In this document: positions 33,809-64,000 of the stretch, piece after piece
How the letters are laid out: every line of letters starts with the position of its first letter
Numbering within the stretch: the stretch's first letter is position 1
Assembly: GCA_034687125.1 (NCBI GenBank)
Contig: JAQGBZ010000051.1
Coordinates: 186,001 to 250,000, forward strand
Direction of reading: 5' to 3'
Source: Neelides folsomi
Lineage: Eukaryota; Arthropoda; Collembola; Neelipleona; Neelidae
Length of the DNA: 64,000 nucleotides
The notes under the pieces: generated by a model
What the model was told of the DNA's origin: nothing
The model's input: the letters and a program-made list of their open reading frames with translations, nothing else
Database searches by the model: none
Position numbers and translations under genes: made by a program

Positions 33809-35600
33809 ATGAGTTTGGTGGTGCGGAGGGAGAATGATGAATTTGGTCGTTACTTGGAACTTCTGGAGGGACTTGGGGAAGGTGAATTAATATTTAGAGA
33901 AGAGCCTTTAATTTCCGGCCCAGTTGAAGGGGCTGGAAATTATGAGACGTGCCTCGGATGTTATGAATTAATTTCAAAAAACAATGAGTATAAATGCTCT
34001 TCGTGCTCTTGGCCCGTCTGTTCACAATTTTGTGAAAAGGTTTGGCTTTAATTCCATTTCCCTTTACTCTATATTTATATATTACATAAAACTATTTTAT
34101 ATGTCTAATATTTACCACAAACTTTAATATTAGTAGGATTTTAGTTCAAAGTAAACTTTGTCATTTTATATGATTTACCAACATTACAATGTAATGATTA
34201 TTGTAGATGAGTTTTAGTTGAAGTTTAGATGTCAATTATATTAATTGTTCTTTAATTACCATTAATCATTAAATTAATGTAGTTGAATCATTTATAATGT
34301 TCTTATTAGCTCCCGGCTCATCGTGACTTTGAATGCGGGTTATTTGAGGAAAGAAATATCGGTCGGTCGGTGATTAAGGAATACTGCACAAAAATTCTCG
34401 CATTGCGGTGCCTTCTGCTTAAAACCGTTGATCCTCCCAAGTACACGTCTCTGTTAAACCTCGAGTCCCACGATGAGTCGAGAGAGAAATTCAAAACATT
34501 CTCAACCTACAGATTCATCCGCACGGTTTGCAACCTTCAAGTTTCCTTTGACCTTGTTCATAAAATCATTGGCATCATGGCCGTCAACTCTTTTGGAACT
34601 TCCGAGTCTTTGCTCCAAACTCCGAATTCCCCACCAAAGTTCGGAGCCCTTTTGTTCAAAACTGCAAGTTTAATTTCCCATTCGTGCAGTCCAAACTCAA
34701 GTTGGGAAATTTCTTATCAAAATGATTCCTTTGCCTTTCGGGTTTCCGCCAATGTGGATTTGCTTCCTAATACAATGATCACAATTCCTTACCTGGACAT
34801 CACTAAAGGGACAATGGACCGGCGGGCAGATTTGCGACAGACGTTCTTTTTCGAATGCAAATGTAAACGCTGTTCTGATCCTACAGAACTCCAGACATTT
34901 TTTTCATCATTTATTTGTGAATTCTGTGGGAGTCATACGATTCCTTTGAATTCTCTCAATTCGAGATCGAGATGGAAATGTGTGAATTGCGATTGGGTGG
35001 GGCCGTATGAGTACAAGTTAATCCAAGCGATTGTTCATGACATGAAGACGAAGATCGAAGGGACGCATTCAATCGACAGTGTTCGAGATGTAGAGCGGAT
35101 GATCGAAAAATATGAAGGGATTATTGTAGGAGTTAACCATTATTTAATTGTCGATCTCAAGATTGAATTAATGAAGAGAAGTTTCACCATTTTGGAAAAT
35201 CTTCAACAATTTCCTTCAAAAAACATAACCAAAGAGGAATTGGTCAAAGTGGCCGAAAAGATGAATATTGTAGTGAAGGATTTACTTACCCTGGCTCAAA
35301 TTCTTTATCCAGGAACAAATAAAATTAGAGGTTTTTAATTATTTTTTATTAATTACCAAACTGTTTAATTATATTTAATAACAAAACTGACTTTAGTTAA
35401 AGTACAAAAAGGAAAAGCCAATTAATTACTGTTAATTGAATTTATTTAATTGTATTTATTTTTCAGAAAAACTTATTAGCTATGAAAAATACTCACGGAC
35501 TTTTCTTCAAATTGCTGGCCAAGAAGAAATAGCTGGGAAGCTCAACGAGATGAATTTACAAAATGTCCTCATTGGAATCGGAAATCTCATTCATAAATAA
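33809..35600 (+). CDS. SMYD-type SET/MYND lysine methyltransferase-like protein
   Basis: Three exons (33809-34039, 34310-35330, 35467-35600) give 461 residues, normal for SMYD. The MYND zinc finger has all eight ligands: C48, C51, C63, C66, C71, C75, H81, C86. The SET core follows, with SHSCSPN at about 200-206 (the NHSCxPN motif) and NTMITIPYLD in place of the family's GEELxxxY region. Post-SET cysteines CKCKRC and a second CEFC/CVNC pair come next. SMYD proteins transfer methyl groups from SAM to lysines of histones or other proteins. The divergence of the catalytic Tyr motif is typical of arthropod SmydA members, whose activity is uncertain. It is convergent with the CSP gene, whose stop lies about 210 bases away. 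Confidence 0.9.
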
Positions 35601-35808: not shown

Positions 35809-36922
35809 TTATGTTGTGGTTGGAGCTTTTTCTTCTTCATCGTTCTTTTCTAGCGTTTCTTTGATTCTGGTGAGTTCTTCTTCGGGGATTTCAATTCCCG
35901 AATTGACCAAGAATTTCCCAACTGCAGCTCTGTACAGTTCTGGACGATCTTTGATCAAACGCTCAAGCCAAAGGTTTAACCAACCTTTAATTCATAACAT
36001 GATGTCACAATTAATTTTAATTCTTGGATTTTCATTAATGTTGGGATATACAGGGTGGGACATAAGTATCATTTTTAAATAAACAATCGTATAAAAAAGA
36101 AAGATACTTATACTTATACTACACCCTGTATACAAAAATACATTTTATATCACCTTTTTGTTTTTCGGTGCATTTAAGACATTCGCCTAAAAGGCCGGCT
36201 TTGACTCTTGCTATAAAAAGATTAATTAATGAAAGTTCAAAAGGTTAAGTTTAATTATTCAACATACGTTTTGCCCATCTGCCAACCTAGAAAATAAACA
36301 TGTTGAAATAAACAAAGAACTCGTAAAATTTTAGCGCATAGTAATATAGTGTGAATGAAGAACAAAATTGAACTTATCTCAATTTACAATTCTTGTCATA
36401 TAAATATTTACAATCCTCTGAAGAATTATAAATCTTCATATATAAACATGTTTTTAAAGAAGGTTGACTTACGACGTCGCAAGGACCTAAAAGAACAATT
36501 CACCAATTTAACTCAATTCACACTTTCAAGTGAAACAACAGAACAAACTGATTTGGATATAACTTATAATTATATTAAAGCCACAACAATGACTTTTATG
36601 ATAAATCATTAATGTGTACTTTATTATAAGAATCTTACCGTTGTAAAGAACGCATTTAATTTGGAGATTTAGAAATTTGTCATTCCTCAAATACGATCTA
36701 CGTGTTAAACAAGTTTGTGAATCATGAGAGAATTAAGAGAGTTTCATTAAATGGAGGGAATTAGACATTTAATGAGGTTAAATTGATTGAAATTGAAATT
36801 AACTCAATGTCGAGAGTATCCAATTCAGGTTGAAGTCTCAATGAATAAATTCGTTCTTGCCCGACAACTCCAGTGATGACGATAAAAAATAACAAAATTT
36901 CTAAAATTCGGATTTTCTCCAT
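35809..36922 (-). CDS. Chemosensory protein (OS-D/CSP family), six exons
   Basis: Exons 36922-36804, 36697-36639, 36486-36473, 36286-36268, 36210-36154 and 35984-35809 keep phase throughout and give 147 residues. Residues 1-22 form a signal peptide. Cysteines at 55, 62, 81 and 84 have the exact CSP spacing C-x6-C-x18-C-x2-C. Family motifs are present in order: YLRNDKF, CVLYNGPCD, CLKCTEKQK and RLIKDRPELY. CSPs are small helical carriers of hydrophobic ligands secreted into haemolymph or sensillar lymph, with roles in chemosensation and development. Exons 3 and 4 are only 14 and 19 nt. Five introns is far more than the zero to two usual in insect CSP genes. The last intron holds a MITE (36049-36132), and its acceptor (GAATTAAAG) is weak but the only one keeping phase. 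The acidic tail after residue 120 is longer than usual. Confidence 0.88.
36049..36132. mobile_element. Mariner-like MITE, copy A
   Basis: An element of about 84 bp flanked by TA, starting CAGGGTGGGACATAAGTATC and ending in an imperfect inverted copy (ACACCCTG). Its interior matches the reverse complement of the copy at 57403-57482 almost base for base, apart from a 4-nt gap and a few changes. There is no coding capacity. The TA target and CAGGGTG ends are typical of Tc1/mariner-derived elements. It fills half of the last CSP intron. Confidence 0.8.
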
Positions 36923-53923: not shown

Positions 53924-55562
53924 ATGGATTTGGAGACTTCTGAAGCCTCGGAAGGACACGAAGAAGGGAAGAAATATAAAATGAATTATAATGATGGATG
54001 GGATCCGGATCGTCTTGAAGAAGTATTTAATTAAAAATTATTATTTTTGTATTGTTTTTCAATTATAATAATTTCTTTAATTATTTTGAGTTCTTTAATT
54101 AATGTATTTTATAGGAAATGGCCAAACATCCGTTTTTCATGACGGAATTTCCACCTGAAGGTGCTGAGGTTCCTCCTTTGATTGAAGCTCTCCAACAATT
54201 GAAATATTCCGAAACCGACAACACTCCGCATGAACTGGCCATTGCCCACAAAGAAGATGGGAATTTCCACTTTAAATTAAAAAAGTATCGAATTGCCATC
54301 ACTTGTTTCACCGAAGCCTTGAAGACTGCGACCAAAACTGATGACAATAATCTCATTGCTCAACTCTACAATAATCGCTCTGCGGCACATTTCTTTTTGG
54401 AGAATTTTCGATCTTCGTTACTTGATTCGCAAAAGGCTTTAGAAATCGACCCAAAGTATTTCAAACCGCTTTTGAGAGGAATCCAAGCGGCGATCCAATT
54501 GAAGAACACAGATGTTGCATTGGCTTTAGTTAAAAGAGCTACAGAAATTGAACCAATGAATTCTGAAGTTCAACGTCTTAAATTTTTGGCTCTTCGCACA
54601 CGAGTAAGTTTTATTTTTAATTATATTAATAATAATAAGCAAAACATTTTTTTTATAATTACAATTATCCAACTTTTAATTTGTTAATGCTATTTGTTTA
54701 AGCAAATCATTTATTTTTACAACAGAACATGATGAGGCTTTAATGATTTATTCAATTCAAATTATTTTATGAATATTATATATTTTGGTATTAAATTTTA
54801 GATTGCGAAAGAATCGAAAGATAGAAGGGAAGAAATTATTGCGAAGCAAAAGATTCTTCAGACGGGAACGCTGATGAAAACAATCGAAGAACGTGGGATT
54901 AAATGCAAAAATTATAAATTCCTCACTGACATTCTCCATACTGGTGGATTCGGTAGCGAAGAAAGGGTCAAATTGAATAATGCAACTCTTATATGGCCAG
55001 TTTTGTTTTATTATCCCCAATTTTCCGAGTCGGAGCTTGTGAAAGAATTTGATGAAAATTCAACGTGAGTTAATCTACAGTACTTAATTTAATTTATTTG
55101 ATGTTTAATTTGTTTAATTGAAATTTGATGATAATTAAGGTTTCTTGATCATTTGATTACAATGTTGGACGAGGATCGACCGAGTTGGGACGTGAAGGGT
55201 GAATACACTTCAGAAAATGTGACCCTTGCATTTGTGGATTCTCAAACAGGAGCTGAAGTGAAAGTCGAAAAAACAGCAACACTCAAAGAAACCTTATCAA
55301 ATCCAAAGTAAACATCTATGACTATTTTGATTTTTCCTAATGAATTCCTTATTATAACTCACAAAGTTAAAAAAATTATAAAAATTATATAAAATTATCA
55401 ATTTCTCAATATCAATATTACAATCAATATTTATGTATGTATAATGATTTGCATTGTAGGTTTGAGCTTCCTCGCAATGGAATTCCAGGGTTCATTGTCC
55501 TTGCTAAAGGAAATGCAATTTGTGATTTTCTTAAAGAAAGAATGGAAGATGCCTCGAGTTAA
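53924..55562 (+). CDS. TTC4: TTC4/CNS1 Hsp90 co-chaperone
   Basis: Five exons (53924-54022, 54115-54603, 54802-55064, 55140-55307, 55460-55562) give 373 residues (human TTC4 has 387). The N-terminal HPFFMTEFP motif typical of TTC4 is at about residues 37-45. Three TPR repeats cover about 78-195: KEDGNFHFKLKKYRIAITCFTEAL, YNNRSAAHFFLENFRSSLLDSQKAL and KYFKPLLRGIQAAIQL. A charged helix links to the conserved C-terminal wheel-like domain (WPVLFYYPQFSESELV, PRNGIPGFIVLAKGN). TTC4, yeast Cns1 and fly Dpit47 bind the C-termini of Hsp90 and Hsp70 and link them to translation or replication factors. Gene intact; AATAAA lies 31 bases after the stop. Confidence 0.94.
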
Positions 55563-57402: not shown

Positions 57403-57482
57403 TACTGGATGGGCCATAAGTATCTTTCTTTTTTATACAATTGTTTATTTAAAAATGAATGATACTTATGGCCCACCCTGTA
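57403..57482. mobile_element. Mariner-like MITE, copy B
   Basis: An element of about 80 bp with 20-bp terminal inverted repeats matching at 18 positions: CTGGATGGGCCATAAGTATC on the left and the reverse complement of CAGGGTGGGCCATAAGTATC on the right, flanked by TA. The interior matches copy A (36049-36132) in inverted orientation. Non-coding. Confidence 0.85.
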
Positions 57483-57907
57483 TATTTAATATGTATAGTT
57501 TGCTATTTGTTTCAATATGAGTTAATCGCCCTATTTAATTAATTATAAAAAGGAGCATTGATGAATTTAACGTTAATGTGAAGTTTTTTCTCATTTATAA
57601 AACCTGAGAATGAAATTGTAAATGAGATAAAGATGAGGATGGGAGATTTTGCGTGTCGCCCTCGTTTTAGCAAAGTTCTTTGTCCTCCGCTTCATCGAAA
57701 AATCGGGGATTCGGGATTCGGGGGATCAATGTGGAAACGCCTGCGCCCGCCCTTCTTCACTTTCTTTTGACGTCGTCCTCCGAATGCTCTGCACGAAATT
57801 GACCTCTTGCATTGAGTAAATTAAATCAATTTTTAATTAACTTTAAAAACCCTTTATTATCCAAAATTACCAAATTGCATAGTTTTATAACTTTACCACT
57901 CTGTTCA
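57483..57907. other. Upstream region of the TACC gene
   Basis: GC-richer from about 57650 to 57800, with no frame that joins the TACC exons. Probably promoter or 5' UTR. Confidence 0.4.
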
Positions 57908-61911: not shown

Positions 61912-64000
61912 ATGGTAAGTTTTTTGAATTAAAGTATTTAAATACCGAATGGGTCATTATTGGGATTATTTTCAGAGGGTGATCGTCGTAGAGATCTTGT
62001 TGGGCCACAAGGCGACGGTGAGGGAAAAAGCGACCGCTGAGGGCTTCACTCACGATTGGGAAGTCTTTGTCAAGTCGGAATCGGGCGCACTCGAGAGTTT
62101 CATTGACCGCGTTGTGTTCCAATTACATGATTCCTTCCAGCGACCTCGACGAGGTAAAATTAATTAAAATCCCCCTTAATAATATATAGATATATTGTGC
62201 AATGAAGCCAATGAATGTATATTAAGATACAAGGAATGCTTTAACAGAGTTGATTAAATAGTTTATAAAATAGACACTGAACAAATAAACACGAACTCGA
62301 TTCAATTTTACAACGTGAGTTTAAGCCTATCTCGCTTGTTTGTTATATTAGGAGCACGTTTGACTATTAATGCTATTAAGAGTATTAAACCATGTCCTTA
62401 TTAGGATTGAGTAAATAGTCATCAATGATTTAAAAACTATCGTTGGAAATTACATTAAGTTATAATGTTTGGGCTTATCGTGCTTCAACTCTTATCGATT
62501 GTCATTTGATTCACAGCCATAAAAAATTGTATTTTATTGATATAAGGAGACGAAGCAGGTCTATAAGATCTCCCCTGTACTGTAGGAACATTCAAGTGGA
62601 ACATTCCTGTTAAATATTTAATTTTCATATTCGTGTGGAATTGAATTTATTTTAAACTTAAAAATGCGTAGTGAACTCATAATTCCTTATCTTCAACTCT
62701 GGCCGATCAGACTTCATTATTTATTTACAACTCTCCTTCTCCATTCCGACTCCTCTCTGTCTTCCTCATTGACAAACAATTACCGTACTTTACCCATTAT
62801 GTACATTTAATTTGAAAGTTTTAGTATTAGCTTGTATTTGTAGATACTCCCTAATGGTCCCATAATATCGAATAATATCAAAATAATTGAAAAAGTTCCA
62901 TTGTTTGTAAATTCACAAAGATAAATTAATTAGCGAGAAATTGAAATATTGAATAATTGGTTATTAAAAAACCATAATTGGAATGTAGTGGTTAAGGAGC
63001 CGCCGTATTCAGTTCGCGAGTCGGGCTACGCCGGGTTCATCCTCAACATCGAAGTGATGTTCCGGAACAAAGAGGAGCCAAAGAAAGCCTCATTCGAATA
63101 TGACCTCTTCCTCCAAACCTCCGGCCCCACCATCAATCACAACCGAAAGGAAAAATTGGCCTTTTCCAACCCCTCGGACGACTTTGCCAAGAAGCTCTTC
63201 AAAGCAGGAGGACATGTGAAGAAGGGCGAAGAAGGATCGTCCAAAGGTGAAAATTCTCATTCCTCGCACGGGAACCAACAGGCGGCCGTGACGTCGTCGG
63301 GTGGTGGCAAATCGTCCAAGCACTCGATCACGGTCCCATCCTCCTCATCTCATCCCAACAAAGCCTCTCCGCGGTCCTCGTCCTCCTTCGAGAGCCTTTT
63401 CGGCACTCCGATCAAAAGAGGGACGAGCGGCGGGGGAGGGGGGAGCTCCTCCTCGTCCTCAGTCGGATCGTCCTCAGGAGCTGTACGGGGAATGCCCCCG
63501 CCCCCACCGACTGTCAAGGAATCAAGGAAAGGGCGTCCACAACTCACAGCCGAAATGACAAGAAGTTTGTCCCCACTCTCATCATCACCTGGTAAGGGAT
63601 TGGAATATTTCCTCCTTCCTTAAACGACCCGTTTAATCATGTCTATGATTAAACGGTCTTGGGTCAATGAACTTTATTTTTAATGCGTATAAGGGAATAT
63701 AAAATATTGTGTTTAAAACCTTTTTTATGTAAAGGAATTTATTTATTTTTAATTTGCAAATAAAATGTAATATTTATGTAGTGTTTTATAACTTTTAAAT
63801 ATTTAAATTCTATTATTAAAGTTTAAAAATTTAAATAGTGCTTTGTAAGCTTAAAATATTTAAATTCTATTATATAAAGCTTAAATGTTTTTAAAGTTTA
63901 TGAGAGGGTATATAATGAGTGTTTGTTTAATTAAAGCCTCGAGTCCACCGAGCTCTCCAGAAGAGCGACGAATGATGTCGCCGGTAGAGTGGAAGAAAAG
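61912..64000 (+). CDS. ENL/AF9-type YEATS-domain protein (3' partial)
   Basis: Exons 61912-61914 (the ATG alone in coding terms, then GTAAGT), 61976-62153, 62989-63591 and 63937 to the window edge join in phase. The YEATS domain spans about residues 2-135: [53 protein letters not shown] and [18 protein letters not shown]. The reader-pocket residues (His and Ser-Phe in LHDSF, Tyr in GYAGF) are all present, so binding to acetylated or crotonylated H3 lysines is expected. ENL/AF9 and fly Ear belong to the super elongation complex and recruit DOT1L. A Ser/Gly/Lys-rich linker with long Ser and Gly runs follows, as in the family. The C-terminal AHD lies beyond the window. The 835-bp second coding intron (62154-62988) holds nothing else recognised. 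Confidence 0.94.

Follow-up and report, generated by a model that had tools for sequence, protein, structure and literature searches.

A chemosensory protein gene with 14-nt and 19-nt microexons and the varied intron positions of its paralogs

A chemosensory protein gene in six exons

The window, that is, the whole analyzed stretch of 64,000 nt, contains an intact gene encoding a chemosensory protein (CSP) on the minus strand (36922-35809), referred to below as W. Its coding sequence consists of six exons joined into one open frame of 147 amino acids with start and stop codons. The protein belongs to the OS-D family (PF03392; E 5e-13, 49.4 bits at a Pfam cut-off of 25), and by sequence it matches the insect CSPs of PDB entries 2gvs and 1k19 (E 1.8e-8 and 4e-8, respectively). 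It contains exactly four cysteines, C55, C62, C81, and C84, spaced as C-x6-C-x18-C-x2-C, in agreement with the family pattern C-x6(-8)-C-x18-C-x2-C. The N-terminus is hydrophobic, as judged by eye, and the protein is probably secreted; by analogy with other CSPs, which have a six-helix fold and bind hydrophobic ligands, it most likely serves to carry such ligands as a small secreted protein. The exons and introns are as follows.

36804..36922, minus strand: CSP exon 1, 119 nt; start codon and hydrophobic N-terminus, to ...DIE (phase 2)
36698..36803, minus strand: intron 1, 106 nt, GTTAAT..CGTAG; position W40/phase 2; only in W among 17 models
36639..36697, minus strand: exon 2, 59 nt; contains Cys1 (C55)
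36487..36638, minus strand: intron 2, 152 nt; phase 1 in Gly60; position common to 768k, 731k, and C339
36473..36486, minus strand: 14-nt microexon, (g)PCDV; contains Cys2 (C62); also in paralog 768k
36287..36472, minus strand: intron 3, 186 nt, phase 0; position in six of 17 models including W
36268..36286, minus strand: 19-nt microexon, VGRWAK(p); same exon in six of 17 models including W
36211..36267, minus strand: intron 4, 57 nt, phase 1; after AAA-C, one base past the conserved Lys codon
36154..36210, minus strand: exon 5, 57 nt; contains Cys3 and Cys4 (C81, C84)
35985..36153, minus strand: intron 5, 169 nt, phase 1; position W90; only in W among 17 models
35809..35984, minus strand: exon 6, 176 nt with the stop codon; C-terminal part, acidic tail

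All five introns are of the GT-AG type, in phases 2, 1, 0, 1, and 1. Several donors in the CSP models of this genome are weak (GTTAAT, GTTCGT, GTTTGA, and GTTCAA). The original prediction of a six-exon gene with exons of 14 and 19 nt is borne out by the 147-aa frame, the Pfam match, and the recovery of both microexons with paralog queries described below; the exact restoration of the cysteine core and the agreement of GT-AG sites and phases, which it had also claimed, hold as well. Its junctions 36639/36486, 36473/36286, and 36268/36210 are right as junctions of a gene model derived from sequence, and W is predicted to be spliced accordingly in vivo. With two internal exons of 14 and 19 nt, flanked by GT-AG introns and common to paralogs, W is a predicted microexon gene.

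Not all of this architecture is unusual. Intron 4, at which the 19-nt exon ends, is the canonical phase-1 CSP intron after Lys45, according to the position rule in the excerpt of PMC12940638, and the unusual part consists of the four extra introns.

The CSP family in the genome

Exon-by-exon searches of the genome (75.1 Mb in 840 contigs) yielded at least 17 CSP gene models, a lower bound because the search scores the best candidates only. Ten of them form a tandem run on contig C1 and are named by their position on it: 731k, 734k, 736k, 738k, 742k, 749k, 763k, 765k, 767k, and 768k. Two others are located on contig C425 (C425a and C425b), and C215, C39, C339, and C233 carry one each; the remaining model is W. 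Most models cover only the conserved core, and 749k is partial. A 70-kb part of C1 was scanned on both strands with two queries, where the best minus-strand score was 43.7 and plus-strand matches were listed from 70 up. The core modeled at C233:48431-48077 (minus strand) contains the Lys45 intron only and forms the longest branch of the tree considered below.

The first Pfam search of the genome did not list W and gave six exon matches, from only six of the 17 genes modeled later, which may serve as a warning for annotators of such families. Since microexons and extra introns are found across the 17 models, W is not a single odd gene. The possibility that every gene of this genome is shattered is countered by actin-family matches (matches rather than gene models) that run without a stop for 729 nt at C14:199604-200332 and for 522 nt at C282:37530-38051.

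Intron positions across the paralogs

The 17 models contain 39 introns at 17 positions, 16 of them besides that of the Lys45 intron. The positions, denoted by W residue and phase, and the genes carrying them are listed here.

33/1: 767k
35/1: 736k
40/2: W
42/0: 763k
45/0: 731k, C339
55/1: 736k
55/2: 763k
57/2: 749k
60/1: W, 768k, 731k, C339
65/0: W, C425a, 767k, 736k, 763k, 768k
67/2: C425b, C215
71/1 (canonical Lys45 intron): 13 of 17 models
90/1: W
101/0: 736k
102/2: C425a
105/1: 768k
106/0: 734k

The junctions were obtained with a purpose-written spliced aligner. It placed one wrong junction, an intron of 738k between YAN and LC; visual inspection revealed the Lys45 intron instead, and the junction was rejected. 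With this correction, which the tree considered below also includes, all 39 introns are GT-AG. Their lengths start at 57 nt, with a median of 106 nt. Beyond the 13 carriers of the Lys45 intron, 749k has a fitting donor at this site as well, and three genes, 731k, C339, and 734k, read through it. The sister genes 731k and C339, which are without the Lys45 intron, have an intron of the same phase 33 nt upstream (60/1).

The microexons correspond to the intervals between neighboring positions. The 14-nt exon, from 60/1 to 65/0, is present in two of the 17 models, W and 768k on contig C1, which thus has the same 14- and 19-nt pair as W. The 19-nt exon, from 65/0 to 71/1, occurs in six (W, 768k, C425a, 767k, 736k, and 763k), and an exon of 11 nt, from 67/2 to 71/1, is found in C425b and C215. 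Of the 22 internal exons, 12 do not exceed 30 nt, and these are distributed over eight of the 17 models. The original prediction stands in that W is more fragmented than a usual CSP gene; W is not alone in this, six of the 17 models having the 19-nt exon and two the 14-nt exon.

Support for the microexons and the consequences of skipping them

An alignment with the W model itself as the query is circular, and the microexons were therefore tested with four paralogs in which the 14- and 19-nt pair is absent. Three of these queries, C39, 765k, and C233, have no intron between Cys1 and the Lys45 intron, and the fourth, C425b, has a different microexon. With C39, C425b, and 765k as queries, the two microexons are found with correct borders on either side under each of the two intron penalties; with C233, the 14-nt exon is recovered, and the 19-nt exon is placed correctly at its start but not at its end. 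The last W exon is missed or misplaced with the C39, 765k, and C233 queries, so that the paralog test concerns the microexon region.

With the C39 core as the query, the real region scores 163.1 versus a best score of 104.5 among 400 dinucleotide shuffles of 36638-36211, in which the flanking exons of W itself were kept. None of the 400 shuffles reaches the real score, which rules out chance microexons. At least one small exon was placed in 219 of the shuffles and two were placed in 27, and the sequence was restored by none. Chance readily supplies small exons with GT-AG borders, but not ones that restore the sequence.

In the W model, skipping either microexon alone breaks the frame, and skipping both keeps the frame but loses Cys62, which is invariant in 14 aligned paralog stretches. 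A working transcript therefore most likely includes both.

Two other readings of the exon pair were considered. The pair could form a cassette of 33 nt; joint skipping would leave the frame intact, yield an isoform that lacks Cys62, and thereby regulate a three-cysteine variant. The sum of 14 and 19 nt does keep the frame, from phase 1 to phase 1, and the pair recurs in 768k; however, frame keeping is an automatic consequence of two phase-1 introns, and given also the invariance of the cysteine that would be lost, we regard such a cassette as very improbable. It is barely conceivable that W is a decaying copy in which chance matches rescue a broken frame. The exons are indeed tiny, the donor of intron 1 is weak, and most shuffles accommodate some small GT-AG exon, but W retains a full open frame with start, stop, and all four cysteines, no shuffle does as well as the real sequence, and the same junctions are observed in the paralogs.

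With both microexons included, the short introns of W (57-186 nt) suggest that splice sites would be paired across introns, in which case tiny exons could be tolerated. Neighboring introns would then be removed one after the other; such stepwise removal is to be expected because two spliceosomes are unlikely to assemble on a 14-nt exon at once.

Possible sources of the introns

Introns 2 and 3 were searched for further copies with a 391-base stretch comprising both introns, both microexons, and the edges of exon 2 and intron 4. No second genomic match to the stretch was found by the search, which skips very common words. A BLAST comparison among the 39 introns, with the 738k intron entered with coordinates off by some bases, gave 13 short matches, 15-32 nt long, with a best E of 0.001, and no similarity was detected in it between introns at the same position.

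Intron 5 contains a repeat:

36047..36132, minus strand: MITE-like repeat in intron 5; TA, an inverted-repeat element of ~82 bp (start TACAGGGTG, end CCACCCTGTA), and TA

Among 320 first-look candidates for genomic copies of this element, 40 were scored, namely its own copy and 39 others at 85-94% (best strand). On the same contig, a second copy is located at C51:243416-243485, corresponding to 57416-57485 of the window. The element in intron 5 is separated by 21 nt from the donor of the intron and by 62 nt from its acceptor and thus does not reach the splice sites; its ends are TACAGGG..CCCTGTA rather than GT..AG. Without the element, intron 5 would be ~83 nt long. As the repeat stays off the splice sites and the remainder is in the range of intron lengths of the CSP models, it most likely inserted into an intron that was already there.

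Many similar copies extending from splice site to splice site, the mark of introner-derived introns, were observed neither for introns 2, 3, and 5 nor in the BLAST comparison of the CSP family. A splice-to-splice repeat origin was rejected for introns 2 and 3, which have no second match, and for intron 5, where the MITE is internal. Old, decayed repeat copies may nevertheless lie behind the introns.

Gain versus loss of introns

The tree was constructed from 95 columns for 16 of the 17 genes of this genome alone, with 749k left out as partial. Only four of its 13 inner branches are strongly supported, and two of its rows are long. A clade of ten genes sharing the motif GRWxKPR is among the strongly supported groups (98/99); its first branch is C39, which has the Lys45 intron only. 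The tree covers 15 positions other than that of the Lys45 intron; 11 of them occur in one gene and two in one sister pair, each requiring one change. The remaining two, 60/1 and 65/0, require three changes each, and the Lys45 intron requires two.

The carriers of the recurrent positions do not group together. W and 768k as a clade are rejected (p-AU 0.0008), as are the four carriers of 60/1 (p-AU 7e-5) and the six carriers of 65/0 (p-AU 0.002). Hence parallel gains, repeated losses, or gene conversion must be invoked to account for 60/1; for 65/0, at least losses are required. A clade of the three genes without the Lys45 intron (731k, C339, and 734k) is not rejected (p-AU 0.17).

Gains appear likelier than retention of ancestral introns because 13 of the 15 positions are restricted to a single gene or a single sister pair. 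A position present in one gene is a single change by definition, so that the case for gain rests on the losses that the alternative would need. We consider it likely that the coding sequence has been split by repeated gain of spliceosomal introns atop a single ancestral Lys45 intron, with gain rather than loss suggested by the comparison of the paralogous sequences. The original prediction had raised a recent burst of intron gain as one possibility. Gain is indeed the better reading of the 16 positions other than Lys45, most of which belong to single genes or sister pairs, but recency does not follow, as introns at the same position have no detected similarity.

The course of events may be outlined for the microexons. 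The ancestor would be a gene with the Lys45 intron only. The phase-0 intron 65/0 would have been gained 19 nt upstream of it, after C39 had split off and most simply in the ancestor of most of the GRWxKPR clade, thereby creating the 19-nt microexon; it would then have been lost in two branches, 765k and C425b with C215. A further phase-1 intron in Gly60 would have cut off the 14-nt microexon. Many single gains could account for other positions, along with loss of the Lys45 intron outside the GRWxKPR clade. A stronger version of this scenario, sustained gain in which roughly a dozen positions or more were added to a core of ~85 residues, including repeated gain of the phase-1 intron in Gly60 in separate branches and with microexons as a by-product, is proposed only tentatively, and we regard it as possible rather than probable.

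In support of one of the junctions, two truncated and broken copies similar to 736k, at C148:27418-27558 (plus strand) and C579:1049-910 (minus strand) and with flanks common to both, read straight through the 101/0 intron site of 736k (89% and 77% identity, respectively). A genome search with the C148 stretch returned only these two copies and 736k itself. Either the 101/0 intron is young, or the source of the copies was spliced RNA or a relative that lacks the intron.

Two other histories would give the intron set a different origin. If the introns were ancestral, either in this lineage or in pancrustaceans, and lost differentially in paralogs and insects, the presence of 60/1 in the distant paralogs W, 768k, 731k, and C339 would find a simple explanation, as the rejected grouping of its carriers is what an old and repeatedly lost intron would give. 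Losses do happen, as demonstrated by 731k, C339, and 734k, in which the Lys45 intron is missing. Further, when residues are numbered approximately, by subtracting 25 or 26 from the W residue, 33/1 or 35/1 and 101/0 or 102/2 come to lie some two codons or less from extra insect sites described in excerpts of the literature (residue 7 and Leu74/Arg75, respectively), and thus a few positions may be old. However, ancestral introns would require very many losses to leave 13 of 15 positions in one gene or sister pair, C39 at the base of the GRWxKPR clade has the Lys45 intron alone, and the extra insect sites in the excerpt of PMC12940638 match neither 60/1 nor 65/0; we thus consider this history unlikely. 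Less likely still are introns made by introner-like or transposon copies that carried splice sites with them. A high-copy MITE does reside in intron 5, and PMC5579523, in the excerpted part, argues that gain outweighs loss in the CSP genes of moths and beetles and that introns were gained there through transposition. On the other hand, this MITE is internal to its intron, is set between TA dinucleotides, and does not end in GT..AG; no second copy of introns 2 and 3 was found in the genome, and the comparison of the 39 introns gave only short matches, none of them between introns at the same position.

Comparison with known CSPs and other families

The genes described here share with insect CSPs (CSP/OS-D/A10, PF03392; named 4CSP in PMC12940638) the spacing of the four cysteines, the Pfam and PDB matches, and, according to literature excerpts, clustering of paralogs and the phase-1 intron after Lys45. 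Most insect CSP genes have the Lys45 intron, and some have an extra one (excerpts of PMC12940638, PMC7230875, and PMC5579523). The range of zero to two introns assumed in the original prediction is slightly low: the excerpt of PMC5755795 gives 0-4 introns for 283 mosquito CSPs, with four or five exons in the CSP5 group, and that of PMC9329939 gives one to three introns for the CSPs of a bean bug. The excerpts of PMC7257214 and PMC10639083 contain nothing on CSP intron positions.

Compared with the mostly single intron of insect CSPs in these excerpts, W has five introns, and the 17 models have 16 positions besides Lys45. Exons of 11, 14, 19, 28, and 29 nt, as present in the CSPs of this genome, also distinguish them from the usual insect genes. 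The closest parallels are independent extra introns in single genes, namely Nasonia NV16079, Bombyx BmorCSP4 and BmorCSP10, and the mosquito CSP5 group (excerpts of PMC7230875, PMC5579523, and PMC5755795, respectively). There, the extra introns occupy a few named sites (for instance, Arg75, Arg87/88, and Ser115), and the excerpts make no mention of microexons. The density of introns in the ~85-residue core looks higher in the present genome, the published genes being compared by description in excerpts. Many very small exons are also characteristic of another insect family of putatively secreted proteins, the aphid bicycle genes (excerpt of PMC9168663). That family is a different one, with ~17 exons on average and implicated as gall effectors, whereas the fragmentation in the present genome affects an old and conserved family.

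Thus the CSP family is known, and its dense and varied intron set in this genome is new; no earlier report of microexons or of such a dense-intron pattern in CSP genes was found in the open-access literature searched. CSPs are known for one nearly fixed intron, and 16 further positions in one genome provide a natural series for studying intron origin, which also bears on preferred intron sites and on how the spliceosome handles exons of 11-19 nt between short introns. If the sustained-gain reading is true, the paralogs of a single genome record the process of gain.

Neighboring genes and the host genome

Three other protein-domain matches were observed in the window, and a search against Rfam gave no match in its 64,000 nt at curated thresholds. 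On the plus strand at 34310-35338, an open frame of 342 amino acids has a SET-domain match just over the cut-off; it faces the CSP gene and ends ~470 bases from the end of the latter. Matches to the TPR repeat (54115-54687, plus strand) and to the YEATS domain (62934-63623, plus strand) are located in open frames of other genes.

The mitochondrial contig C742 (15,157 bp, of which 10,000 were read) has the gene order I-Q-M-nad2-W-C-Y-cox1-L2-cox2-K-D-atp8/6-cox3-G-nad3-A-R..S1-E-F, where tRNAs were identified by ARAGORN, cox1 by Pfam, and the other protein genes by eye. We take this to be the ancestral pancrustacean order, common to insects and crustaceans, and the host to be a pancrustacean; the other possibility raised in the original prediction, a lineage outside typical insects, is compatible with this order. 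Finally, three weak exon matches to odorant-binding proteins (E 1e-4 to 2e-3) in the genome hint at a hexapod, and the host may be a springtail. In the excerpt of PMC4145409, CSPs are reported from springtails and crustaceans, and odorant-binding proteins from hexapods only.
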